From positions 1,984,001 through 2,048,000 of the forward strand of contig CM057059.1 of assembly GCA_029945375.1 (NCBI GenBank): a DNA stretch of 64,000 nt, given 5' to 3'. Positions 30,955-52,736 of the stretch are shown here, in pieces. The notes under the pieces were generated by a model. That model ran no database searches. It saw nothing but the letters and a program-made list of their open reading frames with translations, and had not been told where the DNA came from. Made by a program: the position numbers and the translations under genes. Within the stretch, counting starts at the first letter, position 1; the number at the start of each line of letters is the position of its first letter. Source of the stretch: Agaricus subrufescens. Its lineage: Eukaryota; Basidiomycota; Agaricomycetes; Agaricales; Agaricaceae.

Positions 30955-31394
30955 CTAGTGTCCAAGTCCCAATAGCGGGACAGCAAAATCAATCACCTTT
31001 GGTGCTACAGCCTTGGTCAGAATGTCTGCCACTTGCTGATCAGTAGAAACATAGAGGGGATTGATAATTCCTTCTTCTACAGCCTCCCAGAGCCAGTAGA
31101 ACCAAAGATCCAGGTGTTTCATGCACCCATGGTGCTCAGGATTCTTTGCCAAACTGATTCCAGACTTGTTATCAACAAATAAAGTCAAAGCAAGCGTCTG
31201 GGGGTAGCCAAACTCACTGAGAATGTTCCTAGTCCACTTGATCTCCTTTCCGGCCTCAACAGCAGCCACAAATTCAGCTTCAGTGCTCAAGAGAGTCACA
31301 AAGGGCTGACGCTTTGAGGACCAGCCCACAGCAGCACCAGAGACAATGGTCACATATCCACCTGTAGCTCGACCTGTGGCCTTGCAGCTGCCAT
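30955..31394 (-). pseudogene. Copia C RNase H C-terminus
   Basis: The frame from TGRATGGYVTIVSGAAVGWS through STEAEFVAAVEAGKEIKW, DNKSGISLAKNP and STDQQVADILTKA to the natural stop at 30955, just upstream of the polypurine tract and LTR. It is intact where present. The N-terminal side is displaced to 50505 by the giant element. Confidence 0.88.
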
Positions 31395-32772
31395 TGAAGA
31401 GACTAGATCAGTGTGAATGTGGAAAATAAAATATAAAAATATAAAATTGGATGTGAATGCAACCCTTTGAATTACACCAAGTCTCGAGTGCGATTTGTGG
31501 GGAGAATAAATCAGAAAGAAAGTGAAAGTAAGTGTCTCAATTAAGTATTAAATGAAAATAGGGGTAGAATAGAAATGTGAAACAAGTCTCAACTGAATAG
31601 AGACCTCTTCCAGCCCTATGCCATTTTGATTAGAACCTTTGCAACAAGTGGCTAAGCTCATGACAACTGTCCTCAATAGAATGGGTTAGACACCTATCTA
31701 GGAGGGATAGCAAGTCCATCCTAGTGATGCCTCAACAAAATCAGAGAGCCTTGACCTGCCTTTGCACTTCAAGACAGACTGCAAGACAAGTTGAGCTAGC
31801 ACCAAATGCTATTGTGATCCTATTAGACCAGTGAAGATACTCTCTTGAGCAGAACACAAGTCCTTCTGAGTCAAGAAAGAACTTAAGAAATGCTTAGAAC
31901 ACTGCAAAGTTTAACCAAACTCAATTTCACTTGCACAGTGCTTGGGCAAAGATTTGATCCTGAACCTCATCCTTGACTGGCGACTATATATGATACACAA
32001 TAAAAAACTGAGACAAAATAAACAAATATGAAACAAATAATCAAGTCCATATCCAGCGCTGAATGGGTATAGCCTCCTCAACTCTTCTTCTTCCACCAAT
32101 CAACAGTCTCGACTATTCAGTCTCCTTGACCGAACATCGCACTTGTCTAATCTCCTGCTCCTCATTGGCTAACAAGCTTCCAACCCTAGACCCTAGTCTA
32201 GAATCTCTCGAGACACATCCCCCACTGATTAACCCATCGATAAGATGTCCTCAATTAGACTAAGCTTCTATCTCGTCTTTAGTTGCTTTGAGATTATCAC
32301 TATTACTGCTTGATCCAGAGTCTCGACTGATAATTCCAACAGTCTCACTTCAGATTTATTCAGTCTCGACATGTGTGATTCACTTATTTCCTAGCCCTTC
32401 CCCATTAGGCAGGTAGTAGTTATTGATCCAGTCTAGCATAAGGTCCACTAAAGGAAACACACTCCACTAAGTCCTTGAGCCATCCCATAACCAGTCTCAA
32501 TGAGATTTCCCAATACAGTTTCCCTAGACTCAGTCTCAAGACTTTCATTTTAAAGTCCTTGAATGCAAATATATTTCCCTTAACAGTACAGTTTTCCTGT
32601 TAGGAATTGTGGATGCAATTTCAACTGTTCCCTAGGTCAACCTCTCTTCACGCATGTCCTTGACTGAGCTTATCTCTAACTGGGTGACCAATTGTTCATT
32701 CTCAAACCTAATACGTACACCTAGCCACATTAAACATATATTTTCACACGTAAAACAGCTGGGGCTGTAACA
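31395..32772 (-). repeat. 3' LTR of the giant element (1,378 bp)
   Basis: Plus-strand edges TGAAGAGACTAGATC and GGGGCTGTAACA. It has the same length as the 5' LTR. In the first ~770 bases I see about eight differences between them, nearly all at CG versus TG/CA sites. Confidence 0.9.
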
Positions 32773-32790
32773 TCTCCCCCCCACTATGAA
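32773..32790 (-). other. Polypurine tract of the giant element
   Basis: The minus strand reads CATAGTGGGGGGAGA directly before the LTR start TGTTACAGCC. This is the position of the plus-strand DNA primer in LTR elements. Confidence 0.7.
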
Positions 32791-32876
32791 ACAACTGTCC
32801 TCAGTCATACCAGACTCCATCTCAGAACTAAACTGATCATCTCCAACTTCTGGCAGGACTTCAATTTCACCCCTCG

Positions 32877-35800
32877 ATGAGCATTTGCCCTTGGCCAGTG
32901 GTGGACTGCCCGCTCCGGACATCACCAGCAGCTATTAATATCACTACCACCTCATTCTCCCAGAATGGCAATTGCCATGCTTCCTTTCTGATTGCCCTGG
33001 ACCACGCATTACTAAATTTAGCGCAATCTTCCAATCACTTTCCAAAAGTGATGTTTAAACTTCCTCAACTTCTTTTTTATTTTGCTGACCCTGCCTCATT
33101 TTTTCTTTGGGGTGTCATCAGCCAATGGCTCATTCTGCGCTACTGCTGCTGACATAGCATGTCAGTGCAATCTAGTGCATCTTGCCTTTTTTGTCTCTAC
33201 CCTGCAGATCTTGACCTCACTAATAGGGTATCTTTGACTGACACCAAGCTCTGGCCCTCATTAAAAGCAGACCTTGCCCTCCCTTTGGCTTTCTTTCTCC
33301 CCATCATGTCCTCCTTGCCTCCCCAGCTGCCCCCCAAGATAGCCATTGCTGCTATCCTCAATAAGGCAGAATGGGGTGTGCATTTTCTGTCCAACATCCT
33401 TCTCTGGCACTCTGATCATTTTCAAGCTCTTCTGGCCTACTGAAAAACCCTGCAACCAGCAGAGTCATTGTCCATATCACCGTCCAACACTCCTCAGACT
33501 ATCTCACAGACTTTGCCCTCAGTTGCTTGCCCTTTGTCTACCCCACTAGTACCTTCTGCTCTCCTGGCCATTGCTCACACTCTGATGCCAGCACCATGTT
33601 TGCATCCTGCCTTTCCCTGTTCTCCTGTTTCTTGCCTTTTGACTCCTGCCACTCTTGCAGCTCCCTCGACTTCATCAGCTTCAGCTCAGACTCCTTGTCA
33701 ACCTCCCCCTCGCTGTTCTCTTGGTGAGTTGCTGATAGCTCATACTCGACATCTCTTTGCTGCTGTATGTGCTTCTAATATCATGGCTGCTCAAATCACA
33801 GCTAGGGTGGCGTCAGAGGCTCCTTGGCTTAATCTGGCTGAGGTTCACATCCCAGATATCTCTAACACTGGTTCAAAATCTGGCTCTGCTCGTTGTGGCA
33901 AGACTAATCCTCCCACTACCAAGTGCCAATGTCTCCGATCTCTGTCGCCCAAAACTACCCCCAAGGTAGTTCCCAAAATTGAGAAGGTTTCTCCTGCCAA
34001 AGCTCTGGTGCCTGCTTGCACTCCCCACCCAGGATCTGGCAAATGCCTTGCTCACAAGACTACTGGCAGTAATAAATTTACCTCTGGCTCATACACTGCT
34101 GTCATTGAAATCACCTCCTCCTCCTCCTCATCTCCTTCTGAGCCGGACCAAGTCATGATCAGTGACGAGGAGAGCAAAAGTGATGACAACAAAGACAAAG
34201 TGGTCCAAGAGGATGAACTTGATGACTCCAATGTCAACATGGACAAGTCCTCATCCAAAAAGTGCAAACCAGCTGCCTCTCGTCATAAGCCTGGACGCCC
34301 TCCAAAAGCTACCCCAGTAACTTGCTCTTCAGTTGCTCACTCCAAGCAATCCAAGTCAATCAAGACTCCCACAACCATCGATTCTGACAGCTCAGAGGAA
34401 CCTCGCAGTATGTGCTCTTCTGTCTCTTCTCCTTTCTCTGCTAACCCTCATTTCCTAGTCTGCACCAATACTTCTTTGACTTGCCAACTTGGTCTTGCTC
34501 CCGGTGCTCCTTATCTCGACAGTCTGGCTACACATTTCACCATCTCCTATAATCTGGTATGCACCCTTTTAGCTCCTTCCCTCTTTCTCTCCTCAATCAT
34601 TTAATTTTAGTACTCTCCTTGCTCTGCCAATTGTCTCAACTGTATGCACAACTTTTGCTGAATGTATACTGCAGACAATCCCATCAAACATCACTGTGGA
34701 GAATCCATTGAGGATGCGCAGCATTGCGTCAATGCCCTCATCACTGGTGTTGAGTGCGACCAGTGCAACCATGACTGCGCCAGCCACTGCAGCAAAACCA
34801 AACCCCCTGCTTTGTGTCAATTTGCAGCTGAGCTGTGCTGCACACCTACTTTTATTGTGGGCAACAGTATGCCTGCACTAGTAGCTAGCACTTTTTATCA
34901 TTATTATTGGGTGTATCCAATGATAGCAACTTCATTATTCCCAACAACCTTTCATATCATAACTTCCCAATGACTCTACCCATAGAATCTTCATTCATTA
35001 TGTATCCTTCCCATTTCTTCATTCATTCATGACCATTCTTCTTCCAATAGATTTCTTCAATTACATATCAACCATTTTCATTATTACCCATCATTTCCCC
35101 ATCATTCTGGCCATCAATAGGCAATAGGACATCAAAAGCTAATCTAGGCATCAATCTTGTTCATCAATACATCATTTCTGCCATCACCATCACTCCTCCC
35201 ATCAACAATCCCATCAGTCCCATCAGAGTGGTAGTGCAATAAATGGTTGCTCAATTGCTAGTCATTGGCTGGCTCAATTTCTATGGAACTTGAAATATAC
35301 TATAATATATATAATATGTCTGTATGTATGCAATATTATGTGGTACTGAGCAGCAAATTGCCTGATATGGCAGTGCTTTTCCTGGGCAGAAAAAGGACTA
35401 CTGTGAGCGCATTTTTGGGCTCCTCCAAATGAAATGCACATTGATAGAGAGTTAAGGGCTTTCCAACAAATGTACTCATGCATGAGCTACTTAAATTCTT
35501 GGTACAAGAGGAGCTGTTGTGGGTGCAGTTCCTGGCTGTTCTGGATGAGTGTATATGGAGATGGAGCTATGCGGAAGGGCTTTCCAATGAATGTGGTTCT
35601 GCAACTTTTCAAGAGGAAATGGGGGAGATATGATCCAATTACACTTTGATGACAAAAGGGCTTTCTAACGAGTATAGTCTCATAGAATTCCAATAAGAAA
35701 TGGAAAAGTTATAATCAAATTACACCTTGGGTAGAAACAGAGAGAGAGACTGCTTTGTAGCAGGCTAGATATTGAATAGGATGCCACTATACGTTGTAGG

Positions 35801-38184
35801 CAACTACTTTACATTGCAATGTAGCAGTCCAAGTAACAGCTTGTGAATTGAGCAAGGGAATAATGCTCTAGAGGCTAAACAAGAATTTGCATCAGGGTAC
35901 AAAATACAGTTTATCCACACATTTTTTATATAATATCTTCTAATAAAAGCATGGAGCAGTAACTATTGACTATTCCTATTGAATGCAAAGAATCTCTTGT
36001 TAATTGAGCAAGAAATGAGGGAGATATATGTAAAAAAGCAACATACACATGAATAGTACATATGTATGGTATTAATTATTTGCTTTATTTCATGCACTTC
36101 CTCTCTTTGAACGCTTTTTTAGGTTTATTTTCCCCAATTGTTGCTCAATTGACAAGAGATTCTTTGCATTCAATAGGAATAGTCAATAGTTACTGCTCCA
36201 TGCTTTTATTAGAAGATATTATATAAAAAATGTGTGGATAAACTGTATTTTGTACCCTGAAAATGCAAATTCTTGTTTAGCCTCTAGAGCATTATTCCCT
36301 TGCTCAATTCACAAGCTGTTACTTGGACTAGCTACATTGCAATGTAAAGTAGTTGCCTACAACGTATAGTGGCATCCTATTCAATATCTAGCCTGCTACA
36401 AAGCAGTCTCTCTCTCTGTTTCTACCCAAGGTGTAATTTGATTATAACTTTTCCATTTCTTATTGGAATTCTATGAGACTATACTCGTTAGAAAGCCCTT
36501 TTGTCATCAAAGTGTAATTGGATTATATCTCTCCCATTTCCTCTTGAAAGGTTGCAAAACTACATTTGTTGGAAAGCCCTTTTGCATAGCTCCATCTCCA
36601 TATACATTCCATTCAGAACAGCCAGGAACTGCACCTACAACAGCTCCTCTTGTACCAAGAATTTAAGTAGCTCATATCTTTCCCATCTCTAAACCTAATA
36701 TTGCATGAGTACATTTGTTGGAAAGCCCTTAACAAGGGCTCTCTATCAATGTGCATTTCATTTGGAGGAGCCCAAAAATGCGCTCACAGTAGTCCTTTTT
36801 CTGCCCAGGAAAAGCACTGCCATATCAGGCAATTTGCTGCTCAGTACCACATAATATTGCATACATACAGACATATTATATATATTATAGTATATTTCAA
36901 GTTCCATAGAAATTGAGCCAGCCAATGACTAGCAATTGAGCAACCATTTATTGCACTACCACTCTGATGGGACTGATGGGATTGTTGATGGGAGGAGTGA
37001 TGGTGATGGCAGAAATGATGTATTGATGAACAAGATTGATGCCTAGATTAGCTTTTGATGTCCTAATTGCCTATTGATGGCCAGAATGATGGGGAAAATG
37101 ATGGGTAATGAAATGAAAATGGTTATGAAGATATGTAATAATTGAAGAAATCTATTGGAACAATGAAGAAATGGTCATGAAGGTATGCAATGAATGAGGA
37201 AATCTATTGGATTGATGAAGAAATAGTTATGAAAGTATGCAATGAATGAAGAAATCCATGGGAAGGATACATACTGAATGAAGATTCTATGGGTAGAGTC
37301 ATTGGGAAGTTATGATATGAAAGGTTGTTGGGAATAATGAAGTTGCTATCATTGGATACACCCAATAATAATGATAAAAGTGCTAGCTACCCCTCACACC
37401 TGACACATCTTTCTTTCAGCTTTTCTCTGACTTTTATCTAGGACTCCGCATTTGTAACCACAACCTCGATGTCGCCTGCTACCAAATTCAAGGCTTGGAG
37501 CAGCAGCTCAGTCTTGCCGTCTCTCACTATCATACTCTCATCATTGAGAGCACCATTGATTTCCTCGTGGCCTATCACTATCATGACAAGAAGCCTGAGT
37601 TCTGGATTGAGGCCCAACTCGTCTCTGACATTGAAGGCTTCAAGGCCCTACTTGCTGATGCCGAGCACATTGTCAGCTATGACAAGCGCACTCTAACCAC
37701 CTCTGATCTGCCTGCTTACAATGTCAATGCTCTTGACAATCTCTCCGGTCCATGTCACTCTGAAAACCTGCTCATCTCTGGTCACGTGCTTTACGATTCT
37801 TTCTGTCATTTTGGCGAGTGGATGGGTGAGAAGCCCTTCCTTGTCAATGACCAGCAGCCTCTCATTCAACCCTCCTGGTGGGACCATCACATTGCAGCCT
37901 GGGACAAGGCCAATGTTCTGCCCTCTACTCACGCCAACCCTCAATTCTTGAAGGCTTTTGATGAGTACCTTCATGTTCCTCCAATGATGGTGCCTGAACC
38001 GGCAGCTGTTCCTACCAAGCCAAACTCTCCTGCTCAATCTCCTGCTGGAGCTGCCCCATCCACGCCTTCCAGGCAAACGCTGCAGACTCCTCTTTTGCCA
38101 ACCTCTCCTAGTGCTATGGATGTCAAGGTTTCCCTCCAGCCAACCTTGCCTAGCAACACCAATGGTCACGTGGCTGCCTTCTGA
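32877..38184 (+). pseudogene. Antisense accessory gene 1 of the giant element (spliced, AT-hook, Cys-rich)
   Basis: Plus strand, opposite to gag-pol. Proposed exons: 32877-33111, 33166-34407, 34459-34556, 34611-34641, 34675-34866, 37442-38184. These sum to 2,541 nt and keep one frame across five GT-AG introns. The only stop is a TGA at 33441. One intron (34642-34674) would be just 33 nt. The product is Pro/Ser/Ala-rich at first, then has HKPGRPPKA (AT-hook core GRP), an acidic DEESKSDDNKDK tract, a Cys/His cluster (HHCGESIEDAQHC, CDQCNHDC, HCSK) and a ~170-residue mixed domain (DFLVAYHYHDKKPEFW), ending Pro-rich. I recognise no family. The start could be upstream or at 33159. Confidence 0.6.
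34881..37390. mobile_element. Long inverted-repeat (fold-back) element inside an intron of accessory gene 1
   Basis: Arms of ~1.13 kb (34881-36012) and ~1.25 kb (36142-37390) are near-perfect inverted repeats around a ~130-bp AT-rich loop; the ends are GTAGCTAGCAC. It carries no transposase and no long ORF. It sits between the donor at 34867 and the acceptor at 37441, leaving a native intron of about 65 nt. Each arm contains three degenerate units starting GGGCTTTCYAA. No clear target duplication was found. It is best described as a non-autonomous fold-back DNA element. Confidence 0.82.
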
Positions 38185-38904
38185 GAAGGTGTCAAGGGGT
38201 AGGCATGCTGATTGGGTACTTGGTTGGCACCAGCGGTTGTCTTCTGTTTTGTGTTTCTGTTATATCCACCTCAAACATTATTTTTCTGTTTTTCCTTCTT
38301 TTTTCTTGAACTTTCTCCCTAGTCTCTCTTGCATTAGTGCTTTACTACTTCTTAATTGCATGTAGTTAGCCCTTGTTTCTCTTCAGACTAGTTTTTTCCT
38401 GTCTCGTTTCCTTCTTGTCATGTGGTTCCCTTATCCTGTGGTAGCATCATGCTACCTTGTCTCATTTACAATCCCCAATCATTACTATCTCGCTTTTATC
38501 TGTGTCTCTTTTACTACTGAGTGTGAATTCCAGATCCAAGACATTAAGTGGCTTGGCATCTCTTAAGTGTTCCACATGTCCTCTACATAGTCTCGCTCTC
38601 AAACTTCTGTTCTTGTTCTGTGTCAGCCTATAAATAACCTGATCAATCATGGCTTATTTATAGGTCTGCCCCAGATTCTGTTAGAGTAGCCCAGCCTTGT
38701 AACATTGCCTCAGCACAGCACCTTGCCTTATAGAACCCATTTTAATCTCCTGATTTCTGAGTTAAGACTGGTCCAAGATGCATTACTCTCCCCCTCACTA
38801 TGGAAACAGACGCCCTCATCAATCACTGCTCTTGCTCAGAAATTTTTTTTTTTCCTCGATCATATCCTTGACTGCATTCTCAACAAATATAAGTTCTCCG
38901 TAGA
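38185..38904. other. Spacer between the two antisense accessory genes
   Basis: Pyrimidine-rich, without an ORF I can support. It would hold the 3' UTR of gene 1 and the promoter of gene 2. A TATAAATA lies at 38629-38636, about 270 nt before the proposed start of gene 2. A stretch at ~38786-38825 (CTCTCCCCCTCACTATGG) resembles the polypurine-tract region at 32773. Confidence 0.4.
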
Positions 38905-40486
38905 ATGTCTTGCAGCCTAAACATGTGTCTCAACTGTAGTTTGCATCGGCTTCGATCATACAACAACTCCAATCCTTTCCATCACAGATGCAGTGGCCGA
39001 GGCCATGGTAGGGGTTTATTATGAGGTGGTCTTGGTCAAGGGAGGGGTCTATCCCCTTCCTATAATCTCTCCCACTATCATGATAGCATCTTGCCCTACT
39101 TTGACAGTAGCTCTTCAGATGAGGATTGCCATACCACTCCCATGCCTACTGAACCAGCGCTTCCTGCTAAACAGGCATATGAGGAAGCTGTACATCTCCT
39201 TGACACAGAAATCTCATCTTATTTCCATCACTTCAATCATCAACACACTAGTCCTGCCATTGCCCAGAGTCTGGCTGGTCCACTCAAGGTGGCAGGAAGC
39301 TTTCTGGTATCCCTTCTTCTCCCCTCAACTGAATCATTTCATGCTCACAATGTCCTAGACTTCTCTTTTGCAGGCCCTGCAGCGCTACACTGTTGCTCAG
39401 TCTTCTAGCAAAACGCAATGGCTCCTTGCTTGTTCCAAGAGCATGTACAAATCCTATGCTAACTTCCAAGGCAAGGGTCACAAGCAACCTGCAGTTTTCA
39501 ACAAATTGTGTACTATGCTCAGTGCTGTGGATTGCAATCTCAGAAATGGCAAACAAGGTCTCCCTACAAAGCCAGCTGCAGAACATGATGACTCTACCTG
39601 TCAAGGCACTTCTGAACCTCCGGCCAAGAAGGTAAGATCAGCCAACTTTCCACTCTTGCTTTTCTATACCAGCCTATTCTAGAGGTGTCAAACTATTCCT
39701 TGACTTCCTCCAGACAGCTCAGAGTCCTCCGAGGACAAAGTAGAGTCCCAGACTATACTGTGACACCACTCCAGCCTTCCACTTCTCTAAATGTATGCAC
39801 CTTTATCTCGCACTCATTCATGCTAATCCACACCCTCAGATGGAGGTAGACAGTGAGGCTATTCCTCCCCCAGCCTTGGACAGTCCTGAACCTGCCCCCC
39901 TTCAGAGTGCAGCACCAATAACTCAGAACATCACTGGGCCCACTATCCTAGGTGACCAAGATCAAGTCATGCAGACTCGCCCTTGTAGCAACTCTATGTC
40001 TGCAACTGTAAGCTTCTCACCTAAAACTGATTTTCCCTCAAACTTATTTCTTTCTCTCCTAGGACCTATATCCCGGCACAGTGCAAATGGTATGCATTTT
40101 CCACCTGCCACTTCCTGGCTCCGAGGTGCAATGAGAACTCTATCTCAACACTCTCCAATTACAGCCTCAGGAACATCCTCCAATCTTGAACATTATCTCA
40201 GCTGCTACTGGTGTGTCCTAGACTCTTTTCACCTTCACTTCTTCTAATTCTCTTCTCAGCCAACACCTTGGTGTCCAACATTCATTCTTTGTCAGTCAAG
40301 GCCAATGAGGCTGCCCACATCATAGTCTCAGATGCAAGCTATCAAGCCTTGCAGCACAAACTTTTGGCCACTACCACCACTCTCATTGAGTCTGCCCAAC
40401 AACTTGAATTTACTACTTCACACTATTGTTTCTATGCACGAGAGTACAAGTTCTTGTCTCAGCTCCTTGAGCAGTATGATAAATGA
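38905..40486 (+). pseudogene. Antisense accessory gene 2 of the giant element (seven exons, RG-rich start)
   Basis: Proposed exons: 38905-39306, 39374-39631, 39718-39792, 39840-40007, 40063-40089, 40165-40210, 40260-40486. They total 1,203 nt (401 codons) and stay in frame across six GT-AG introns of 47-86 nt, most with CTAAT or CTGAC-like branch sites. The only stop is TGA at 39022, where CGA would complete an RG/GG tract (GRGHGRG...GGLGQGRG). After it come DSSSSDEDC, a helical Lys-rich middle (SKSMYKSYANFQGKGHKQ) and a helical C-terminus (HIIVSDASYQALQHKLLATT). RG-rich tracts often bind RNA, but I do not recognise the family. Its stop lies ~90 nt from the end of pol, tail to tail. Confidence 0.6.
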
Positions 40487-40559
40487 TTCCAGAACAAGGT
40501 AGACAAGTAGGCTATTTACTGTTATAGTGTACTCGTCCAAGACTAGTTTTCTCCTAGTT

Positions 40560-42400
40560 AGTGTTCAATAACAAAGGTTCTAGTCTCCCTTGACTGTCTC
40601 CTCATCTGATTCATTGGCTTCCTTGTCCAAATCAATAGTCTTGACTGGTTCCTCCAATAATTCTAACTCTTCCTCACTTGTATCCAACAGCTTAATGATC
40701 ACATCGGAATACTCGAGTTTCTCCCTTGCCAGGTAAGGAATAACTCAGAATGCAGCAACTTTATTCTGCCATACCAAACCATCCATCTTGGCAAGCACAT
40801 ATGCTCTCCCCTTCAACCTTTGAACCACTACCATGGGTCCGAGGTATCAAGGTTTCATTTTTCTATTGGCTGATATCTTGATTGCTGAATTCTTTACCAG
40901 CACCAAGCTCCCTGCCTCCAGATCATATTCTCTAATCCTCGCTTTCGCATCTTCTTCTAATTTCAAAGCTCAATCAACTTTTTCTTTTGTCAACCTTACC
41001 CCCATTTGCCCCACATGTTTCACATGTTTAGCCAATGCGAGAGCCCACAAACCTACCAACTCTGCAGTCTTGACAAATTGCTTAGGATATTTCACTAACC
41101 AAGTTGCCTCAACTACATCCAAAGGTATCATTGGATGAGCCCTGGTAACTATGAAGTAAGGAGAACATCCTGTCCCCTTTCTTACAGTAATTCTGTCTGC
41201 CCACATAACTTGATGTAGGTGCCAGAACCACTTCTTTACTTCACCATCCATAGCCTTGTATAACATCTGCCGTACATCCCAATGAGGCCTCTCGATGATG
41301 CCATTAGCCCTCAAGTTATATGGTGAGATTGTTACACCTTCAATCCCATATTTATCTTTGAGCCATCTCACCGCTTTCCTAAACGGTGAGCTGTTGTCCA
41401 TGACTATTTTCACAAGACTGCCCCATCTACAGACTATGTCCTCAAATAACCATTGACCAATCAATTTTGCATCCTTGGTTCTTAACACTTTCGCTTCCAT
41501 CCATGACAAGAGTCCACATCTGCCATGCACAATGTATTTACAACCATTTGAGGCAGGTGTCAGGTGTACTGTGTCCGCATGCAAGACTTGAAAGATTGAG
41601 GGCGTATGTGTAACCTCAGGTGGCAATTCCATTGCCATCTTTTGCCGCACTTGACATAAGTGACACAAATGAACATACCAGCTAATGTCGGCTTCCATTT
41701 CAGGCCACCAAAACTGTTGACTGATCAGTCTCGACATTGCATATACTCCTTGATGTCCCAATTTATCATGACATTCCCTCATGATCTCCATCCTATTTTC
41801 TATCTTGATCACCAACTGAGCATAGTCATCCCCTGGTTTTCAATGATACAACTTTCTGTCTTTATCTAACCAGAAGTTTGATGCCACTCTCAACAATTTC
41901 ACCTCCTCAACCATAAGCTGATCTTTTGGTAGTCTCTCCACTTGATGTATAATCCAGTGTCGGATTTTTCCCAATCGACTATCCTGGTCTCAAGCCACAA
42001 TTGTCCTGTGCTCCTCATCATAAATATTGTGACCGTTTTCCTCATTTACTGCCTGTTCCTCCTCCTCAATCATTTTTCCAAGGAATACTCAAACCAGTTT
42101 GGCAATGTCTCAATTGTTAGATAACCGTCGCTTTTCAGCTATTTCCGCACCTGGACACTTTCTTGTGAAGTCAAGGTCCAATTGATAACTATGGTCCATT
42201 GCTATCACTTCAGCAAAGAAACCTTTCCTATCATCTATCTCCTCAACAAAGTTGTCTATCAGTAGAGGATCCTCTTCTCCCTCATTCTCTTTAACTAACT
42301 CAATCTCTTCTCCATCATTGTCTGACCCATCATCATACTGTCGAGTCGCTTTATCTCCAGGATATCATTTCCTCCAAGATAATCCATCAGGCCCAAAGCC
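40560..42400 (-). pseudogene. Giant element integrase
   Basis: Minus-strand Ty3/gypsy integrase. It has a zinc region (CHDKLGHQGVYAMSRL, then CHLCQVRQ) and catalytic landmarks HADTVHLTP, VMDNSSPF and NGIIERPHW (D, D, E kept). A C-terminal part follows (SLVLVKNSAIKISANRK), ending near 40575. The stops I traced (after KVD, KMKP, KVAAF) are mostly TGA at likely CGA. The stretch 41830-42400 is the linker from RNase H and also carries stops. Not functional as it stands. Confidence 0.82.
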
Positions 42401-42409
42401 TTTTCCCTT

Positions 42410-44413
42410 TCAATGAACCAGTGTGAAGTGGAAATGAGTTCGAATATAAACCACCCAATGATTCACAGTCACGCTGAGTAACTTGCTGGCATTGTTTAAC
42501 ATTCCATGCAAGTACTTTGCATCAGTCTCGACAATGAGATTTCGACACCCTCGAAGTAAATAACTCTCTTCCTCAAGTGCCATACACAGTCCCACTAATT
42601 CTCGCTTTGGCTGAGAATATTGCTGTTGCCTCAGATCCATTAATATCAAATTAAATTTGATATAATGAATTATCTTTGGCTCAAGCTCATCTTGCTGGTA
42701 GAGATAATATCCCACAGCCCTCCAAGATGAGTCTACAGCTAAGACAATTGGCTGCTCACTCGGAAACCTTGGATTCCTCGTATGAAAGCAGTCTTGGATA
42801 GCTTCCTTGATCTCGAGCTGAGCCGCTTTCTCAATTGCGCCCCACTTGAAGGGAACTCCCTTCTTGCAAAGATTATACAAGGGAACTGCCTTCATAACAA
42901 AGTCTCAAATGTGATGCCTGCACATTACCACTGTCCCCAAGAAAGCTCGGACATCAGTAGTGTTTTCACAGTCACCCCGATTCAAAATTTTCTCGATCAT
43001 TTCTGCTTTCAGCTTTTGCCCTTTATACAAACACTCAAACCCTAGGATAACCACAGTATCTGCACATATTGTTGTTTTAGGTCCTGAGAACATTCCTCCA
43101 GCATATTTCATTTGCTGTAGAATGCAATTCACATTTTCCATATGCTTGAACACAAATTTATTAATCCCCGAGTTATCAGGCAAGACTTCCGGTACTCCCT
43201 TGGCATTTTCATATCTAGTTGCGGGGCCCCTAATTGGCACATTGTCTATATATGGCAATGTGAACTTGGGAATCTCGTCTCAGAGAATGTAAGTCACATC
43301 CTCATGAAAGATCGGCATGGAATTAATCCATCCCATTGGCAAGGTAATCAAACGTAAGGCCCCAAATGGCATCTGGAACGTTGTTAGGTCCCTCAAACCC
43401 TTGGTGATTTCTCTTTCATTGTAGCCAACATATAAATTGAGTATGACATTACAGGCTCAACCTGCAAAATGCATTGCTAACTCCTCAGTCACAGGTGGTA
43501 GCCCCAAGTGTGCAATCGTAACCTCGTTCAAAGGCTTGAGACTGTGCACTAGTCACAAACTCTTCCCATCTTTCTTAATTACACAGAACCATCTTGATCA
43601 ATAAGATGCATTCAAGGGTTCATATACTCCCGCATCAATCTTTCTTTGGATAATCCTGCACACCTCATCATAAACTGCAGGTGGGATTCTCAAGTTCCTC
43701 AGAACCCAAGGTGTATGAGGCACAGTAGGAATCTTGACTGAAGGGAAATACTCTTTCTTGAAGCTCCCCCTCTCTGAGTTGTCCCATGCAAACGCTTTAT
43801 TTTGTGCCACGACTAACCAATGCATCAATCTAACCTCCTTGGGCCATAAAAACCCATCACTATGCGCTTTATCCATTTTTAACATTTGCTCCTTGGTATA
43901 CCTTCCCGTCAGTACAAACTTGGGCAGTTTCCTCAGTAGTTCTGGCATATCTTTTAGAGGATCCCCAATAATATTTCTAACAATTCGAAATTTATCCGGT
44001 ACTTCCCCTAGAACAGGCCTAACTTTTAGCGCAACTGGCTTATATTTCTTTGCCAGACAGTGCACTAAGTCTCGAGGATTGCCTTGTCCCTCCAACTCTT
44101 CCACCACAACTGATTTACTTCTCAAGTCATGTGGCCTCAACAGTATATTCAGGTACTGCTCAAATGTCTTCTTCTCATCTGAATCCCCTCTTCTCTCCAA
44201 ACTCTTTGCTAAATATAAAAGTTTGAGTTCATCTGTAGTATATGTTTCAGTCTCAATTGGCAAACACTCCGTTATACTAACTCCTCCATTTTCATCCACT
44301 TCAATTATACAAGCCACCTCTCCTCCATCCCACTCATTGGAATCCTCGAGGTGACTTAAAAATTTACTGCTGGCCAAGAGGGAAGTTGTCCTCGACCATA
44401 AGTTAGGATACAA
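42410..44413 (-). pseudogene. Giant element reverse transcriptase and RNase H
   Basis: RT begins in the frame with DKFRIVRNIIGDPL and PPAVYDEVCRIIQRKIDAGV. It continues across TGA stops through WFCVIKKDGKSL, NLYVGYNERE and FQMPFGALRLITLPMGW to the catalytic block, which reads LPYIDNVPI. The second Asp of the usual Y/F-I-D-D is Asn, so the copy is catalytically suspect even without the stops. RNase H follows (VLAVDSSWRAVGYYLYQQ, IVETDAKYLHGM). The block order matches a gypsy lineage common in Agaricomycetes. Confidence 0.85.
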
Positions 44414-45341
44414 GTCAAGGCCTTAGTCTCGGGATTCTTCAAGTTTAGATACTGTCTCCCATCTCGGTGATTTATGACCTCACTTGCTGTAACTAGGTCA
44501 AAAGGACGGCCCAGTAAGACTTGATATGGTGCCTTCTCGACTATGTGCACCTGGAGTTGTACTGTAAGATCCCCTAAGGCAAATGGCACATTTCTGGCTA
44601 AGCCACACGTCTGAGACACCTGCCCATTGGCCGATTGCATGTTAATTTGCAGGCTCAGATCCCAACTGAGTTTACAGTCTGCAGCAGCCTCTCTCGACAT
44701 CATTACAACCTGCGATCCACTATCTAACAGCGCCTCTTCCTCTCAGACACCATTAATAAGTGTTGGAATGACTGTCAATTCAGCTACTTCTTTTGCTGAG
44801 AGACAATCCTGCTCCACTATTGCAAATATCATAGTCCTCGACTCTTCTGCTGAGTATTGATTCAATAATTGCAGTACTGGGTCTTTCCCTGTACACATAT
44901 CCTTGACTCCACTAGTCTTGACCAATCCCCCAGTACTCATTAATACGTTTACATCAATGACTCTACAGGATCCACCCTCCTCATCTTCTGAGTCAGTGTT
45001 CTCCTCTGTCTCAATTGACTTCGGTACCTCTGCCACTACCTCCTCGATGACTGATACTTCACCAGTAGGTACTCTCTTTTTCAAGATGAGTCCCTTCATA
45101 GCTTCTCACAGTCAAGGGGCCAACACAAGAAGTTCTTTCTGGTGATCGTTATATGATTCCCTTCAAATCTCAATAAAAGTTCCACTACATCTACACCCTC
45201 CTCGACTTTAGTCTGGTGTTTATATGCCAGTCCCTTTTTATTCTCCTTGAAATACTTTGCGGGTAGTGGTGGAACTTCTACAACTGCTTTCAACCCTGTT
45301 ACCTTCCTATAAGGAAACTTCTCAACTCTCATAGACAACAT
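44356..45341 (-). pseudogene. Giant element protease region
   Basis: Minus-strand pieces in different frames or separated by stops: a Lys-rich lead (45341-45096, VTGLKAVVEVPPLPAKYFK), an acidic linker (45099-44743) and the retropepsin core. The core has ALLDSGSQVV (D-S-G, ~44715-44745) and the downstream YQVLLGRPFD block. The core motif is intact. Confidence 0.75.
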
Positions 45342-45476
45342 CTCTTTTGCCTTGACTACTTCCTTCTTCTTACTTTTCTATTTCTCCTGGGTTCTCTTTC
45401 CTAGAATCATCCTTGGTCACCTTAATACCTCTGAAACTAACTTGTTTTCCAGAGACCAGCTTTGTCACTGGATGTC

Positions 45477-46013
45477 CTAAAAAACCAAGCCCTGCTCCTT
45501 AGCGGCAGAAAGCAAACTCGATAACTTTCTCAAGAGTGCCTCCTTGCTATCATCTTTGCTCTTGACTATGGTCTCGGAGTCTCCTTGCACAGAACTACCT
45601 GTTGCATCTGGTATTTTGTGCAGTAAGACCTCCATCCCTGCAATCTTCCCTTTCAAACTTTCTAGCTCAAGATCTCTTTTATTGATCCCTTCTTTCCTCT
45701 TCAAAATGGTTGGTGGACTCTCGTAAGTAGGCCCTATATATCCCGTATCCGGTTCCTCATCTGCTGGTTCATAAATCCAGGACGCAACTGTCGCAGGCAT
45801 AAATTTCCTAACACACTCTTGGATATTCAACCCTGCCTCTCAAGGAATTGCCACACCATTCACAAACTGAATCTTGTTACCATCCGTCTTAATCTTTCCA
45901 TCCTTCTCGTCTTGCATCTTATAAGAGCAGGTTGCCCATCTGTGGTCCTCGCCACAATAGAAACATCCTTGATGACCTTCCAGTGTGTAATTATTCCAGA
46001 AAGGTTATCTCAG
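45477..46013 (-). pseudogene. Giant element nucleocapsid/zinc-knuckle region
   Basis: At ~45950-45990 the minus strand encodes CFYCGEDHRWATC, a knuckle with spacing CX2CX3HX4C. After it comes an acidic, Lys/Glu-rich linker (45830-45477). The family solo LTR at 46018 separates it from the rest of Gag. Confidence 0.65.
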
Positions 46014-46017
46014 ACAC

Positions 46018-47402
46018 TGAAGAGACTAGATCAGTGTAAATGTGGAAAATAAAATATAAAATATAAAATCGAATGTGAATGCAACCCTTTGAATTACACT
46101 GAGTCTCGAGTGTGGTTCATGGGGAGAATAAATCAGAAAGAAAGTGAAAGTAAGAGTCTTGATTAAATATTAAATGAAAATAGGGGTAGAATAGAAATGT
46201 GAAACAAGTCTCGACTGAATAGAGACCTCTTCCAGACCTATGCTGTTTTGATTAGAATCTTCACAACGAATGGCTAAGCTTGCATGACTGTCCTCAATAG
46301 AATGGGTTAGACACCTATCTAGCTATCTAGGAGGGGTAGCAAGTCCACCCTAGTGATGTCTCAACAAACTCGGAGAGCCTTGACCTGCCTTTGCGCTTTG
46401 AGACAGACTGCAAGACAAGTTGAGCTAGCACCAAATGCTATTGCGATCCTATTAGACCAGTGAAGATACTCTCTTGAGCAGAACACAAGTCCTTCTGAGT
46501 TGAGAAAGAACTTTTTAGAAATGCTTAGAACACTGCAAAGTTCAACCAAACTCGATTTCACTCACACAGCGCTTGGGCAAAGATTTGATCCTGAACCTTG
46601 TCCTCAACTGGCGACTATATACAATACACAATAAAAAACTGAGACAAAATAAACAAATATGAAACAAATAACCCAGTCCGTATCCAGTGCTGAATGGGTA
46701 TAGCCTCCTCAACTCATCTTTCTCCACCAATCAACAGTCTCGACTATTCAGTCTCCTTTACTGAACATTGCACTTGTCTAATCTCCTGCTCCTCATTGGC
46801 TAACAAGCTTCCAACCCTAGACCCTAGTCTAGAAACTCTCACGACGCATCCCCCACTGATTAACCTGTCGATAAGATGTCCTCAATTAGACTCAGCTTCT
46901 ATCTCACCTTTAGCTGCTTTGAGATTATCACTATTACTGCCTGATCTAGAGTCTTGACCAATAATTCCAACAGCCTTGCTTCAATCCATTCAGTCTCTAC
47001 ATGTGTGAATCACCTATTTCCTAGCCTTTCCATTTCAGGCAGGTAGTAGTTATAGATTCAGTCTAGCATAAGGTCCACGAAAGGAACCATGCTCCACTAA
47101 GTCCTCAAGCCATCCCATAGCCAGTCTCAATGATAATCCCCAATAAAGCCTCCCTAGACTCAGCCTCAAAACTTCCATTTTAAAGTCCTCAAATGCGATT
47201 ATATTTCCCCTAACAGTACAGTTTTCCTGTTAGGAATCACGGATGCAATCTCAACTGTCCCCTAGGTCAACCTCGCTTCACACATGTCCTTGGCTGAACT
47301 TATCCCTAACTGGGTGACCAATTGTTCATTCTCGAACTTAATACATACACCTAACTGCATTAAACATATATTTTCACACATAAAATGGCTGGGACCATAA
47401 CA
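46018..47402 (+). repeat. Solo LTR of the giant family inside the giant element
   Basis: 1,385 bp, edges TGAAGAGACTAG and CCATAACA, inserted between Gag and the zinc knuckle. The flanks ACAC (46014-46017) and ATGC (47403-47406) both fit a decayed ACGC duplication. It carries no internal sequence, so it is a recombination product. Orientation is given as plus-strand TGAAGAG first, the same as the host element's LTRs. Confidence 0.88.
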
Positions 47403-47649
47403 ATGCGGAGGAAAGCTATCCGGTGGTCTCAATCCTTGGGTAGTGAAACTCAATCTCAATGAGTCAAGACTCCCCTGCAAACTCTTCTGCTGCGTCATCC
47501 ATAAATCTTTCATCACATTCATCTCTTGTCACATTTCTTGGCAGATAGCTTCAACATCTGCTGATATTTGCACTGTGGCTGTCATCTCGCATTTCATGGA
47601 GCACTTTTGCTGCATCTTTCTCGGCAGTCAAATCAGTAGATCTAACAAG

Positions 47650-49000
47650 ATTTTTGCTTCCTACCAACTCCACAGCTTTTGAGATCACTTCCTTCCAATT
47701 GTACAGATCCTCATTCCTGTCTGGACATTTGAGCCGGCATTCCTCAACATTTCATTCAAAGCTAGCCTTATATTTAGCTGATCTCTAAATGTTGAGTTGA
47801 GAGATGACACAAATGCCTCAACTATCTCTCTGTTTGAGATAAGGGCAGGAGGTTTCAAACACTTCTCAGCTATGACCTGGAATCTATGCCTGAAAGATAA
47901 CAGTCATAACTCCTTGGCCAGAGTGATAACACAGAATCTCGAACACAAATCCTTTAAAGCTCCCACCGAGCCTGCTTCTTTTTCTACAAGCTCAGGGTAT
48001 TCTGAGTCAAGTGCCTTTCTAAAGTCACTCCATCTTCCCGCAGACTCTGGGATGGCCAGCCATTCCATTCTAATGTTGTGTGGAACATAGGCTAATGCCC
48101 ATTTCATCTTTTTGTTCTCATCTGTCAATGTGACTGATTCACAAGTCTGGTCGAGGCACCAAATAAAATCTGGTAATGCATCTACATCACCCTCCCATTT
48201 CGACGCGCCCACCACCATCAGCGCAGGCATCTCCCTTCTAGACATTCTTGGTCTTGCTGGTGGTGGTGGTGGATTTGTAGGGGGTTTTGGTTGTACAGGT
48301 GGTAGGCTCGGAGCCAATATTCTTTTAGTTTGAGGTGAACTTGTAGGGGCTGTGGGTACTGAAACACTGGCTGCGGCGCTCGAGGACAAAGTTGAGGGAG
48401 AGATAGGCTGAGTCGCAGATAATTTCCCAACTTCCAAGGGTGCAGACTCCTCCAGATGAAAAATGTCTTTCAGTTGTTGTTGGTACAAACTTGGAGCTGG
48501 TGGATTAAAAGCTAAACTGGTAGCTGGTGATCCCCCTGACTGTCAAGTGAATGGTGATTCTCTGAGACTGATGGAACTTGCAGCAGGAAGTGGTAAGCCC
48601 TCCCTAGGTACTACTGGCACTTGAATATGAGGCACAGATGAATGTCTACTTGGACTGGCTGATCCAATTATAAAGCCTCCTGGAATTTCCAATCTTGACT
48701 GATCAGATCTCCCAAACGAACTCTCTAATTGCCCTTCCAGAAACAGGTTACACTCTGTATTGTCCAATGCTCCCTCCGTAGGAACTCCCCACACTTTGCA
48801 TGTAAATTTGGGCTTGACTTCTGTCTCAACCTCTAATCTCTGACTCTCTTCTCTCTCCTTTCGCTTTTCTCTTTGCTTCTCTTCCCTAGCTCACCTCAAC
48901 ACTAAATCTGGATCCTTGGGGACGGGAATGAGGCTTGAGGCCTGCGAGTTTGAAGTAGCCCTCCCTGAGTTCCCTTTTTGCTCCAGTTTTCTCCAAGACT
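47650..49000 (-). pseudogene. Giant element Gag
   Basis: Minus strand. A charged Arg/Glu/Lys-rich lead (~48.8-48.9 kb) and a Pro/Ser-rich middle precede a Gag domain: GASKWEGDVDALPDFIWCLD, ESAGRWSDFRKALDSEYPEL, then FRHRFQVIAEKCLKPPALIS. The visible stops at 48543 and 47904 are TGA in the same frame, each fitting CGA. The exact start codon is not determined. Confidence 0.72.
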
Positions 49001-49126
49001 ACACTCCTGTCATTTGTCCTGTCCTAGACCACCTCTTTCAAAGTGAATCACAAAGGCTTGAACAAAATAAACTCTGAAAAACTTAATCACTTTCAATCTG
49101 AAACTCCCCTTGTGGTGGGCTCCAGA

Positions 49127-50504
49127 TGAAGAGACTAGATCGGTGTGAATGTGGAAAATAAAATATAAAAATATAAAATCGAATGCGAATGCAACCCTTT
49201 GAATTACACCAAGTCTCAAGTGCGATTTGTGGGGAGAATAAATCAGAAAGAAAGTGAAAGTAAGTGTCTCAATTAAGTATTAAATGAAAATAGGGGTAGA
49301 ATAGAAATGTGAAACAAGTCTCGACTGAATAGAGACCTCTTCCAGCCCTATGCCATTTTGATTAGAACCTTTGCAACAAGTGGCTAAGCTCATGACAACT
49401 GTCCTCAATAGAATGGGTTAGACACCTATCTAGGAGGGATAGCAAGTCCATCCTAGTGATGCCTCAACAAAATCAGAGAGCCTTGACCTGCCTTTGCACT
49501 TCAAGACAGACTGCAAGACAAGTTGAGCTAGCACCAAATGCTATTGTGATCCTATTAGACCAGTGAAGATACTCTCTTGAGCAGAACACAAGTCCTTCTG
49601 AGTCAAGAAAGAACTTAAGAAATGCTTAGAACACTGCAAAGTTTAACCAAACTCAATTTCACTTGCACAGTGCTTGGGCAAAGATTTGATCCTGAACCTC
49701 ATCCTTGACTGGCGACTATATATGATACACAATAAAAAACTGAGACAAAATAAACAAATATGAAACAAATAATCAAGTCCATATCCAGCGCTGAATGGGT
49801 ATAGCCTCCTCAACTCTTCTTCTTCCACCAATCAACAGTCTCGACTATTCAGTCTCCTTGACTGAACATCACACTTGTCTAATCTCCTGCTCCTCATTGG
49901 CTAACAAGCTTCCAACCCTAGACCCTAGTCTAGAAACTCTCACGACGCATCCCCCACTGATTAACCCATCGATAAGATGTTCTTGATTAGACTAAGCTTC
50001 TATCTTGCCTTTAGTTGCTTTGAGATTATCACTATTACTGCTTGATCCAGAGTCTTGACTGATAATTCCAACAGTCTCACTTCAGATTTATTCAGTCTTG
50101 ACATGTGTGATTCACTTATTTCCTAGCCCTTCCCCATTAGGCAGGTAGTAGTTATTGATCCAGTCTAGCATAAGGTCCACTAAAAGAACTGCACTCTGCT
50201 AAGTCCTCGAGCCATCCCATAACCAGTCTCAATGAGATTTTCCAATATAGTTTCCCTAGACTCAGTCTTGAGACTTTCATTTTAAAGTCCTCAAATGCGA
50301 ATATATTTCCCCTAACAGCACAGTTTTCCTGTTAGGAATTGCAGATGCAATTTTGACTGTTCCCTAGGTCAACCTCTCTTCACACATGTCCTTGACTGAG
50401 CTTATCTCTAACTGGGTGACTGATTGTTCATTCTTGAACCTGATATGTATCCCTAGCCACATTAAACATATATTTTCATGCATAAAACAGCTGGGGCCGT
50501 AACA
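49127..50504 (-). repeat. 5' LTR of the giant element (1,378 bp)
   Basis: Pair of 31395-32772. A short patch near 49930-49950 (AACTCTCACGACGCATCC) differs from the 3' LTR but equals the solo LTR at 46018, suggesting gene conversion. Inside it, on the minus strand, TGGAGCCCACCA is the likely primer site (49113-49124). Confidence 0.9.
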
Positions 50505-51353
50505 CTGTGAGAGGCATCGGAATAGGTGGTAAACAGCCCCCCAGAGTCACCACCTCTATAGACAAGCTGGTAGTACAGGGTGCCCTTCAAATAGCAAAGT
50601 AAATGCTTTACAGCAAGCCAGTGAGCAGGAGCTGGGTTATGATTGAATCTTCTGAGGTAGGAGACAGCATAGGCAATGTCAGGATGAGTCATGGTGGCTA
50701 GATACTGCAGGGCACCTACAGCAGAGAGATAAGGAACTGGCTTCATCTCAGCCTGCTCCTTGAGAGAGGGCACAATGTTAGAGAGCTCAGAACCTGGTGC
50801 AAGTGGGGTGGAAAGGGAGTTGGAATCATCCATATGGAATTGTTCTAGCAGCTCCTTGATGTAGTGCTCTTGTGAGAGTGAAATAGTGCACTTAGAACAG
50901 TCCTGCTTCAGCTGAATACCCAGTAGCAGAGTGGTAGACCCAAGATCTCGCAGTTTGAAGTGGCTAGAAAGCTCAGAGACAGCAACAGAGACAGCAGAAT
51001 CACTTTTAGACACCAGAGTTATATCATCAATGAAGACAGGCACTATGACCTTGATGTTTCCCTTAGAATAGATGTAGATAGAGTTGTTGGAGCAAAGTCT
51101 GGAGTAGCCAATACCCTCTAGGACACTTCTGAGCTTCTTGCTCCATTGCCTGCCAGCCTGCTTAAGGCCATAGAGCAATTTTTGGAGCCTGAAGACCATA
51201 TTAGGTCCCCCAGTGTGGTAGCCTTCTAGTTGTCTCATATAGATCTCTTCTTCAAGTTCCTCATAGGTAAAGGCAGAAGAGATGTCAACAGAGTGCATTT
51301 TGAAGCCTTCTCTTGCAGCTAAGGCTACAATGAGGTGCAGGGAGGCAGGGCAG
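50505..51353 (-). pseudogene. Copia C reverse transcriptase and RNase H start
   Basis: From 51298 the frame encodes HSVDISSAFTYEELEEEIYM, LLYGLKQAGRQW, catalytic VFIDDITLVSKS, then QYLATMTHPDIAYAVSYL and TTYSDASH, where the giant element cuts it. No stops in this part. The upstream sequence ends at the LTR boundary at 51354. Confidence 0.88.
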
Positions 51354-52736
51354 TGTTATGGCCTCAGCTGTTTTACACATGAAAATGTATGTTTAAGGCG
51401 GCTAGGTGTACATATTAGACTCAAGAATGAGTAATTGATCACCCTGTTAGTAATGAGATTGGTCAAGGGCATGTGTGAAGACAGGGTGAACTAGGAATCA
51501 GTCGAGATTGCATCTGTGATTCCTAGCAGGAAAACTGTACTGTTAGGGGAAATATAATCGCATTCAAGGACTTTAAAATGGAAGTCTCAAGGCTGAGTCT
51601 AGGGAGACTTTATTGTGAATTATCATCAAGACTGGCTATGGGATGGCTTGAGGACTTAGCAGAGCGCAGTTCCTTTAGCAGACCTTATGCTAGACTGAAT
51701 CTATAACTACTACCTGCCTGATATGGAAAGGCTAGGAAATGGGTGATTCACACATGTTGGGACTGAATGAACTGAAGTGAGGCTGTTGGAATTATCAGTC
51801 AAGACTCAGGAATTGGGTAGCAAGGCTGATAATCTTGAAGCAACTGGAGGCAAGATGGAAATTTGGTCTAATCGAGGACATCTTATTGACAGGTTGATCA
51901 GTGGGGGATGAGTCTCAAGGGTTCCTAGACTAGGGTCTAGGGTTGGAACCTTGTTAGCCAATGAAGAGCAAGGGATTAGGCAAGTGTGATGTTCGGTCAA
52001 GGAGACTGAATAGTTGAGACTGTTGATTGGTGGGGAAAGATGAGTCAAGGAGACTATACCCATTCAGCGCTGGATATGGACTTGGTTATTTGTTTCATAT
52101 TTGTTTATTTTGTCTCAGTTTTTTATTATTGTGTATCATATATAGCCGCCAGTTGAGGACAAGGTTCAGAATCAAATCTTTGCCCAAGCACTATGCAAGT
52201 TAAATCAAGTTTGGTTAAACTTTGCAGTGTTCTAAGCATTTCTTAAAGTTCTTTCTCAACTTGGAAGGACTTGTGTTCTGCTCAAGAGAGTATCTTCACT
52301 GGTCTAATAGGATTGCAATAGCATTTGATGCTAGCTCAACTTGTCTTGCAGTCTGTCTCGAAGCGCAAAGGCAGGTCAAGGCTCTCCAAGTTTGTTGAGG
52401 CATCACTAGGGCAGACTCACTACCCCTCCTAGATAGGTGTCTTACCCATCCTATTGAGGACAGTCATCACAAGCTTAGCCCCTCATTGCAAAGGTTCTAA
52501 TCAAAATGGCACAGGTCTGGAAGAGGTCTCTACTCAGTCGAGACTTGTTTCACATTTCTATTCTACCCCTATTTTCATTTAATACTTAATCAAGACTCTT
52601 ACTTTTGCTTTCTTTCTGATTTATTCTCCCCACAAACCGCACTTGAGACTCGGTGTACTTCAAAGGGTTGCATTCACATTTGATTTTATATTTCTTATAT
52701 TTTATTTTCCACACTTATACTGATCTAGTCTCTTCA
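51354..52736 (-). repeat. Giant-family LTR with unmatched flanks
   Basis: 1,383 bp, plus-strand edges TGTTATGGCC and GTCTCTTCA, inverted relative to the LTRs of the 19-kb element. The left flank is copia C RT (GCAG) and the right flank is a poly(A) element ORF1 (CCAC). These are different sequences, so it joins two insertions by ectopic recombination. Confidence 0.85.

Follow-up and report, generated by a model that had tools for sequence, protein, structure and literature searches.

The window analysed here is a stretch of 64,000 nucleotides from Agaricus subrufescens, bases 1984001-2048000 of contig C3 in the 44.65-Mb, 44-contig assembly that was searched; related copies are designated by their contigs. 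A long terminal repeat (LTR) retrotransposon occupies positions 31395-50504 on the minus strand. Its gag-pol pieces span 48890-40973 on that strand, and approximately 7.7 kb between pol and the left LTR hold plus-strand coding sequence for two intron-bearing genes, called gene 1 and gene 2 (Table 1). Both are antisense to gag-pol, hence they do not have the sense orientation of env-type genes. An earlier reading made from the letters of the window alone, the sequence-only reading, had described an LTR element with two multi-intron plus-strand genes opposite gag-pol, and this holds in substance for the LTRs, the strand of gag-pol and the coding cargo. The 7.7 kb of extra DNA it placed between pol and the 3' LTR is present and coding on the plus strand, but includes a later palindrome of 2.5 kb. 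The two LTRs are 96.2% identical over 1378 bases. Protease and reverse transcriptase (RT) matches were seen in the related copy on C11 (1489948-1505138), a full related element of 15.19 kb. An open protease frame precedes the RT frame in L046, and in L058 the RT region (65-210) is followed by RNase H (303-407) and then by integrase H2C2 (637-688); the score of RVT_1 was under the curated cut-off in both. The presumed gag piece 47904-48488 gave no Pfam match. With two TG...CA LTRs and a presumed target duplication, a stretch like a primer-binding site (PBS), a polypurine tract, and the order protease-RT-RNase H-integrase, the window element is classified, by its pol relatives, as a decayed member of a fungal clade of Ty3/gypsy-type LTR retrotransposons.

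The gene models were compared among copies. In the C11 copy gene 1 encodes an unbroken protein of 734 amino acids (aa) and is divided into four exons by introns of 51, 56, and 50 bp, and gene 2 consists of six exons, with introns of 67, 51, 47, 53, and 49 bp, comprising 447 codons with one internal stop. With splice sites taken over from other copies, the window models comprise 739 (gene 1) and 446 (gene 2) codons, counting the stop, instead of the 847 and 401 proposed from the window alone. Nor does the window copy have only one TGA in each gene, as had been counted: three in-frame stops come early in gene 1, and gene 2 contains several stops and a 7-bp deletion in exon 3. Among the mapped copies, gene 1 is without stops or frameshifts also in C13, C5, and C3, and gene 2 in C37, C5, and the C2 copies at 4.06 and 3.61 Mb, the last of these with a 27-bp in-frame deletion. 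Exon totals that are multiples of three, used earlier as an argument, are weak support, because many splice choices stay open; free GT-AG choice within bounds gave 396 open gene 2 models in one lineage and 38 in another. The evidence beyond chance is the comparison across copies, i.e., splice bases against intron interiors and the ratio of nonsynonymous to synonymous substitution rates (dN/dS) in the true frame against wrong frames.

The antisense pair is a family feature of the element. Genome searches gave at least 32 matches to window positions 37400-40600 and at least 23 to 32780-34880, the window included in each, and these counts are lower bounds. A search with pol (43598-45830) gave 19 places outside the window, grouped by eye, and at 15 of them cargo was found within about 10 kb on the expected side of pol; three of the 15 (C7, C14, and C2 at 3.86 Mb) appear to be duplicated from a single insertion. 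Among the copies that were mapped, GT-AG was retained in 111 of 116 intron-copies, and precise intron loss was seen in none of the 116, by which processed intron-less copies were ruled out. There were two departures in introns 2-3 of gene 1, one of them in the window itself, where the intron is split by the palindrome. Agreement with C11 amounted to 461 of 466 cells (98.9%) for splice bases and 4264 of 5030 (84.8%) for intron interiors, all cells coming from related copies and thus not independent. Distinct indels were multiples of three in 17 of 38 cases in exons versus 14 of 98 in non-coding sequence (P = 4e-4); 16 of the 21 exon exceptions come from the two C8 copies at 334 and 375 kb.

Selection was estimated as pairwise Nei-Gojobori dN/dS in the true frame and the two wrong frames. 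For gene 1, 13 labels were used (the window as two halves) and for gene 2, 12 labels, the C14 copy and the C2 copy at 3.87 Mb having been left out of the mapping as near-identical to C7. From 78 and 66 possible pairs, respectively, 3 and 7 were removed for dS under 0.03 and 1 and 0 for fewer than 30 codons, leaving 74 and 59. The dN/dS of gene 1 ranged from 0.14 to 0.35 with a median of 0.22, and its wrong frames gave 0.77-2.93, with 134 of 148 values at 0.9 or above. For gene 2 the range was 0.11-0.61 and the median 0.31. The true frame lay under both wrong frames in 74/74 pairs for gene 1 and 58/59 for gene 2, 132 of 133 in total, and chance open frames were ruled out by this comparison. The proteins of both genes are under purifying selection, and therefore very probably act for the element. 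Of the outcomes that the sequence-only reading had named as refuting it, two were looked for and neither occurred: most related copies do have the region, and the dN/dS of both genes lies far below 1, not about 1. In one gene 1 pair, transversions numbered 16, 13, and 70 at codon positions 1, 2, and 3 (70 of 99 third, P = 3e-14), and codon-position bias in two gene 2 pairs had P values of 0.009 and 0.012. Passages of PMC7264820 discuss antisense transcription of LTR elements as possibly regulatory, and the sequence could accordingly matter as RNA, a natural antisense transcript in which the frames are incidental. This is hardly credible in view of the third-position bias and the frame comparison, and of gene 1 in a further lineage, C1, where the protein is still recognisable even though DNA matches to the window were reported in pol alone.

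Besides the window family, two further lineages have the pair, and its exon layout is largely the same in them. The first, Z, is located at C4:2640000-2648500 (L053) with a near-twin on C13, and its pol is 66% identical in DNA to that of the window; gene 1 is unbroken (664 aa, five exons) and gene 2 has open six-exon models. The second, C1, is represented by the element at C1:226133 to about 240440. Its pol has 67% identity in DNA and a 1039-codon open stretch in the part fetched, and over 519 residues its protein is 65.5% identical to the window and 72% to C11. Gene 1 of C1 is unbroken (535 aa, four exons, introns of 58, 60, and 61 bp), and gene 2 again has open six-exon models. Over the alignment, gene 1 is identical to C11 by 46% in Z and 22% in C1, and the intron preceding exon 4 agrees in alignment position and phase among C11, Z, and C1. 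The first 11 bases of the PBS-like stretch are likewise identical in the C1 lineage. The LTRs of the C1 element differ at 1 of 1353 bases, and TCGC flanks this copy on both sides; among C1-type copies the target duplication was examined in this one alone. C1-type gene 1 together with its introns is present in at least 22 places, and in 19 of these the identity is about 100%; the end of pol with gene 2 was matched over all 3101 bases at 21 places, of which 20 reach 99-100% (best 40 of 46 candidates scored). When the C1 LTR was searched (best 40 of 96 candidates scored), nine pairs on the plus strand, spaced by 12,764-12,782 bases, and three on the minus strand, spaced by 12,768-12,783 bases, were recognised by eye. 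The differing places suggest that the other C1-type copies are separate insertions. The C1-type is apparently a very young LTR family that looks recently active, with open genes in the copy read.

Both genes look host-like in their short introns and low-complexity regions, as would be expected if the pair were host genes recently captured by one element and hitch-hiking without a role. We consider such a capture very improbable, since the pair stands beside pol in three lineages at the gene 1 identities given above, and the dN/dS of gene 1 speaks against it as well. In addition, all 69 gene 1 protein matches (best 61 of 109 candidates) fall in known cargo places, Z or C1; this search showed two of the 22 C1-type copies, and a distant stand-alone host gene could escape it. 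Several of the places with such matches have no pol found near. The order and orientation of the genes are also those of a compact two-gene cassette, and the pair might represent a second mobile element that entered a common ancestor between its pol and 3' LTR and was kept thereafter. That origin is rather unlikely, as no copy of the pair outside this clade was found among the matches listed.

The gene 1 protein combines low-complexity stretches of basic and acidic character with a conserved Cys/His motif. In its Cys-rich exon the pattern C, C, C, C, H, C, S, K, P is identical in C11, Z, and C1, i.e., four cysteines plus His-Cys-Ser...Lys-Pro are common to the three; two of 12 aligned gene 1 sequences break it, L010 lacking one cysteine and L040 the histidine. 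The motif appears suited to zinc binding, a predicted property. The gene 2 protein has an Arg/Gly-rich start and a conserved tail, helical by eye. The composition of both proteins suggests nucleic-acid work, and the likeliest role of the pair would be nuclear.

This is an LTR retrotransposon lineage that maintains and disperses intron-containing genes belonging to it. We consider it very probable that this lineage carries an antisense spliced pair in which the introns are kept by orientation and the proteins act for the element. The genomic RNA would begin in the 5' LTR and contain the pair only as the complement; the introns would not be splice substrates in it and would be copied intact into each new insertion. 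Each insertion would transcribe the pair from the other strand, using a promoter of its own or an antisense promoter of the 3' LTR region, the antisense transcripts would be spliced into two mRNAs, and the resulting proteins would be nuclear. The observed part of this scheme comprises the position, the orientation, the intron-exon conservation, the selection and the near-identical intron-bearing copies. The reason given in the sequence-only reading for the survival of antisense introns through retrotransposition is strongly supported, because C1-type gene 1 keeps its introns in 22 places. That reading is supported in its interpretation and partly confirmed in its observation. A TATA-like stretch was seen by eye about 55-60 bases before the gene 1 ATG in C1 and Z.

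Several points weigh against an antisense, spliced and functional pair. Splicing and promoters of the pair are predicted and unproven. The gene models were set by eye with GT-AG and homology as guides, and the exact gene 2 splice sites of Z and C1 are not unique. Four of the 19 pol places (C26, two on C2, and C12) show no cargo nearby, some of them being fragments. The frame contrast is weaker for gene 2, whose wrong frames gave 0.51-3.09 with only 69 of 118 values at 0.9 or above, and in its exceptional pair, C13-C7, both decayed copies, the true frame was not lower; other high gene 2 values are likewise between decayed copies. No Pfam family was above cut-off for the cargo exons scanned, gene 2 exons 3 and 5 not being in frame in that scan, and the one sub-threshold match was to GASA (E = 0.018). 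No protein-database homologue was found for gene 1, queried with residues 380-734 and with a three-sequence alignment; the queries were of gene 1 only, and a length filter of the database and possibly intron-blind gene calls may hide homologues. The same database holds 998 pol relatives, including Agaricus bisporus proteins with 65-73% identity. The solved-structure search gave a single match (E = 0.68), scans of IMG/VR found nothing, and structure models were of low confidence, with predicted local distance difference test values of 58.5 and 55.2. The proposed function rests on composition, because there is neither a Pfam family nor a homologue and the models are of low confidence.

As for what the proteins do, control or protection of the element's own expression, by accessory or anti-silencing factors, is put forward tentatively, as one possible role. 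In window positions 32773-40600, 41-42% of the CpG positions of C11 (L006/L028) are now TpG or CpA, and of the other C or G positions 6-9% are changed. The CpG loss in old copies points to methylation-type silencing, and an anti-silencing role is therefore attractive, though unproven. It is quite possible, without being probable, that a fungal LTR clade has long encoded a two-protein nuclear module, antisense and multiply spliced, which counters host silencing and whose orientation enables the dispersal of intron-bearing genes. The pair could instead serve in integration or particle function, as an env- or tether-like accessory, and here the insertion sites are relevant. The flanks of the window element, CCAT and CTGT, mismatch at two of four bases as they stand and fit one CCGT decayed at CpG on each side. 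Both LTRs were also read in the C11, C4, and C5 copies, where the flanks are CCGC/CCGC and GCGG/GCGG, both intact, in C11 and C5, and ACGC/ACGT in C4. The 4-bp flanks of all five insertions read (C11, C4, C5, C1, and window) hold or fit a CG dinucleotide, and therefore some target choice may exist. We nevertheless regard an integration or particle role as unlikely, given the basic and acidic composition and the antisense orientation, which differs from the sense orientation of env-like genes in passages of PMC7264820. Expression control is the role we prefer for the pair.

Single antisense genes in LTR elements are already known, and the Boty element of Botrytis cinerea with its gene brtn reportedly goes back to Zhao et al. 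in 2011. Passages of PMC7264820, PMC8365987 and PMC4227169 place brtn antisense between pol and the 3' LTR, so that Boty is, as here, a fungal LTR element with an extra antisense gene in that position. Boty has one such gene whereas the window family has a pair, and the two are likened by description, not by sequence. In parts of PMC4227169 a Boty-like solo LTR is described with a 5-bp duplication, compared with 4 bp in the window family, and a chromodomain is given for Boty gag-pol, compared with none matched in the pol pieces scanned here. The plant elements Retand, Grande and RIRE2 carry antisense open reading frames (aORFs) according to passages of PMC11963269 and PMC7264820; as there described, they share a long region between pol and the 3' LTR, with antisense coding conserved family-wide, and their aORFs are suspected of a nuclear or DNA-binding role, as proposed here, Grande having its own promoter. 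TRP28 is reported in part of this literature for 97% of Retand clusters, and TRP28 (PF04195) was not matched in the cargo exons scanned here. The word "intron" is absent from the main text of PMC11963269 and PMC7264820. Retand, Grande and RIRE2 are likened to the window family without a sequence link. VANDAL elements are DNA transposons, and HBZ of human T-cell leukaemia virus type 1 (HTLV-1) is an antisense gene in an LTR retroelement. VANC of Arabidopsis VANDAL, an element-encoded anti-silencing protein in passages of PMC5735166, is a functional analogue of the proposed role; it is from a plant, and its likeness to the pair is in the guessed role only. HBZ is named in part of PMC11963269; HTLV-1 is a retrovirus, and it is likened to the window family for its antisense gene, no homology being claimed. 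Penelope elements are retroelements that spread intron-containing genes, and an antisense template is called compatible with intron retention in their case (passages of PMC3846280). Penelope-like elements are a separate retroelement group and, in the same passages, moved a host gene in trans, whereas here the genes are the element's own. An opposite-strand accessory gene in a DNA transposon, described for Ectocarpus in part of PMC12477816, is a different case. The Agaricus bisporus assembly paper (PMC7473861, in part) reports Gypsy families, and "antisense" is absent from its main text. A spliced antisense gene pair in an LTR element was not found in the open-licence literature that was searched, subscription papers and Repbase being outside the scope of the search. 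The statement in the sequence-only reading that no multi-intron pair like this is known to be described in fungi thus stands as far as print was searched, but the published single antisense gene brtn belongs beside it. The new part is the spliced, conserved antisense pair. An LTR element appears to disperse its own intron-bearing genes, in 22 places and nearly identically in 19, and the rule that retro-copies normally have no introns may be lifted by orientation alone. The C1-type family offers a young multi-copy system with open genes for testing what antisense extra genes do for LTR elements.

Table 1. Features of the LTR element and its antisense gene pair in window coordinates.
Feature	Position	Strand	Basis or remark
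Left copy of presumed 4-bp target duplication	31391..31394		CCAT
3' LTR	31395..32772	-	TG...CA ends; match to other LTR
Polypurine tract touching 3' LTR	32773..32782	-	GGGGGGGAGA in element sense
Gene 1 exon 1	33306..34407	+	one in-frame stop in window copy
Gene 1 exon 2	34459..34556	+	mapped from other copies
Gene 1 exon 3, Cys-rich (CX2C...CX2CX6HC)	34611..34866	+	one in-frame stop in window copy
Nested 2.5-kb palindromic element in intron 3 of gene 1	34881..37390		self-complementarity; absent in sister copies
Gene 1 exon 4, with final stop	37442..38202	+	one earlier stop in window copy
Gene 2 exon 1	38905..39306	+	Arg/Gly-rich in less decayed C11 copy
Gene 2 exon 2	39374..39631	+	mapped from other copies
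Gene 2 exon 3	39683..39792	+	7-bp deletion in window copy
Gene 2 exon 4	39840..40007	+	mapped from other copies
Gene 2 exon 5	40063..40210	+	mapped from other copies
Gene 2 exon 6, with stop	40260..40511	+	mapped from other copies
Decayed protease-RT-RNase H-integrase region	40973..45839	-	open pieces; Integrase_H2C2 match 9e-18
Solo LTR of same LTR family, inserted in gag	46018..47403	-	about 1.39 kb; LTR match
Presumed gag remnants (by position)	47907..48890	-	two open stretches, 212 and 115 codons
PBS-like stretch just inside 5' LTR	49107..49124	-	TGGAGCCCACC...; sequence read
5' LTR	49127..50504	-	match to other LTR
Right copy of presumed 4-bp target duplication	50505..50508		CTGT

The length of 19 kb given for the element earlier is not the family length, because the palindrome and the solo LTR are nested in the window copy; without these two insertions the element is about 15.2 kb, as is the C11 copy. 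The palindrome is near-perfect, with arm pieces 94-100% complementary and the ends GTAGCTAGCAC, and its relatives occur at many other places in the genome, often as inverted pairs; it looks like a member of a fold-back element family. It is absent from seven other copies (C11, C37, C4, C5 at 3.28 Mb, C3 at 3.98 Mb, and C2 at 3.61 and 4.06 Mb), because the two halves of the cargo lie only 6-8 bases apart there, and the palindrome was ruled out as part of the cargo on the same grounds. The flanks of the solo LTR, ACAC and ATGC, can each be derived from a single ACGC by CpG decay.

Divergence was uneven along some copies. In most pairs involving C11 (L006/L028), gene 1 diverges more than gene 2 and the end of pol; for C11-C13 the dS was 0.32 in gene 1 versus 0.12 in gene 2, and the introns gave 0.31 versus 0.085. 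Either older recombination or faster change would account for this. The copy at C2:4058022-4066303 (L008+L032) is a mosaic, C5-like in the left flank and most of gene 1 and nearly identical to C11 downstream. It suggests ectopic recombination between insertions, which fits better because its left flank is the same as that of the C5 copy; template switching was dropped for this reason.

At the host site the window element splits an open frame, which stops at 50462 and resumes at 31353, and which we take to be copia-like from its motifs. A related stretch at 53457-54144 has both sides of the split frame joined. The locus is a nested repeat cluster, with the copia-like element (50462-51298, 30955-31353) around the LTR element, and further LTRs of the same type stand beside it in both orientations (51351-56902).

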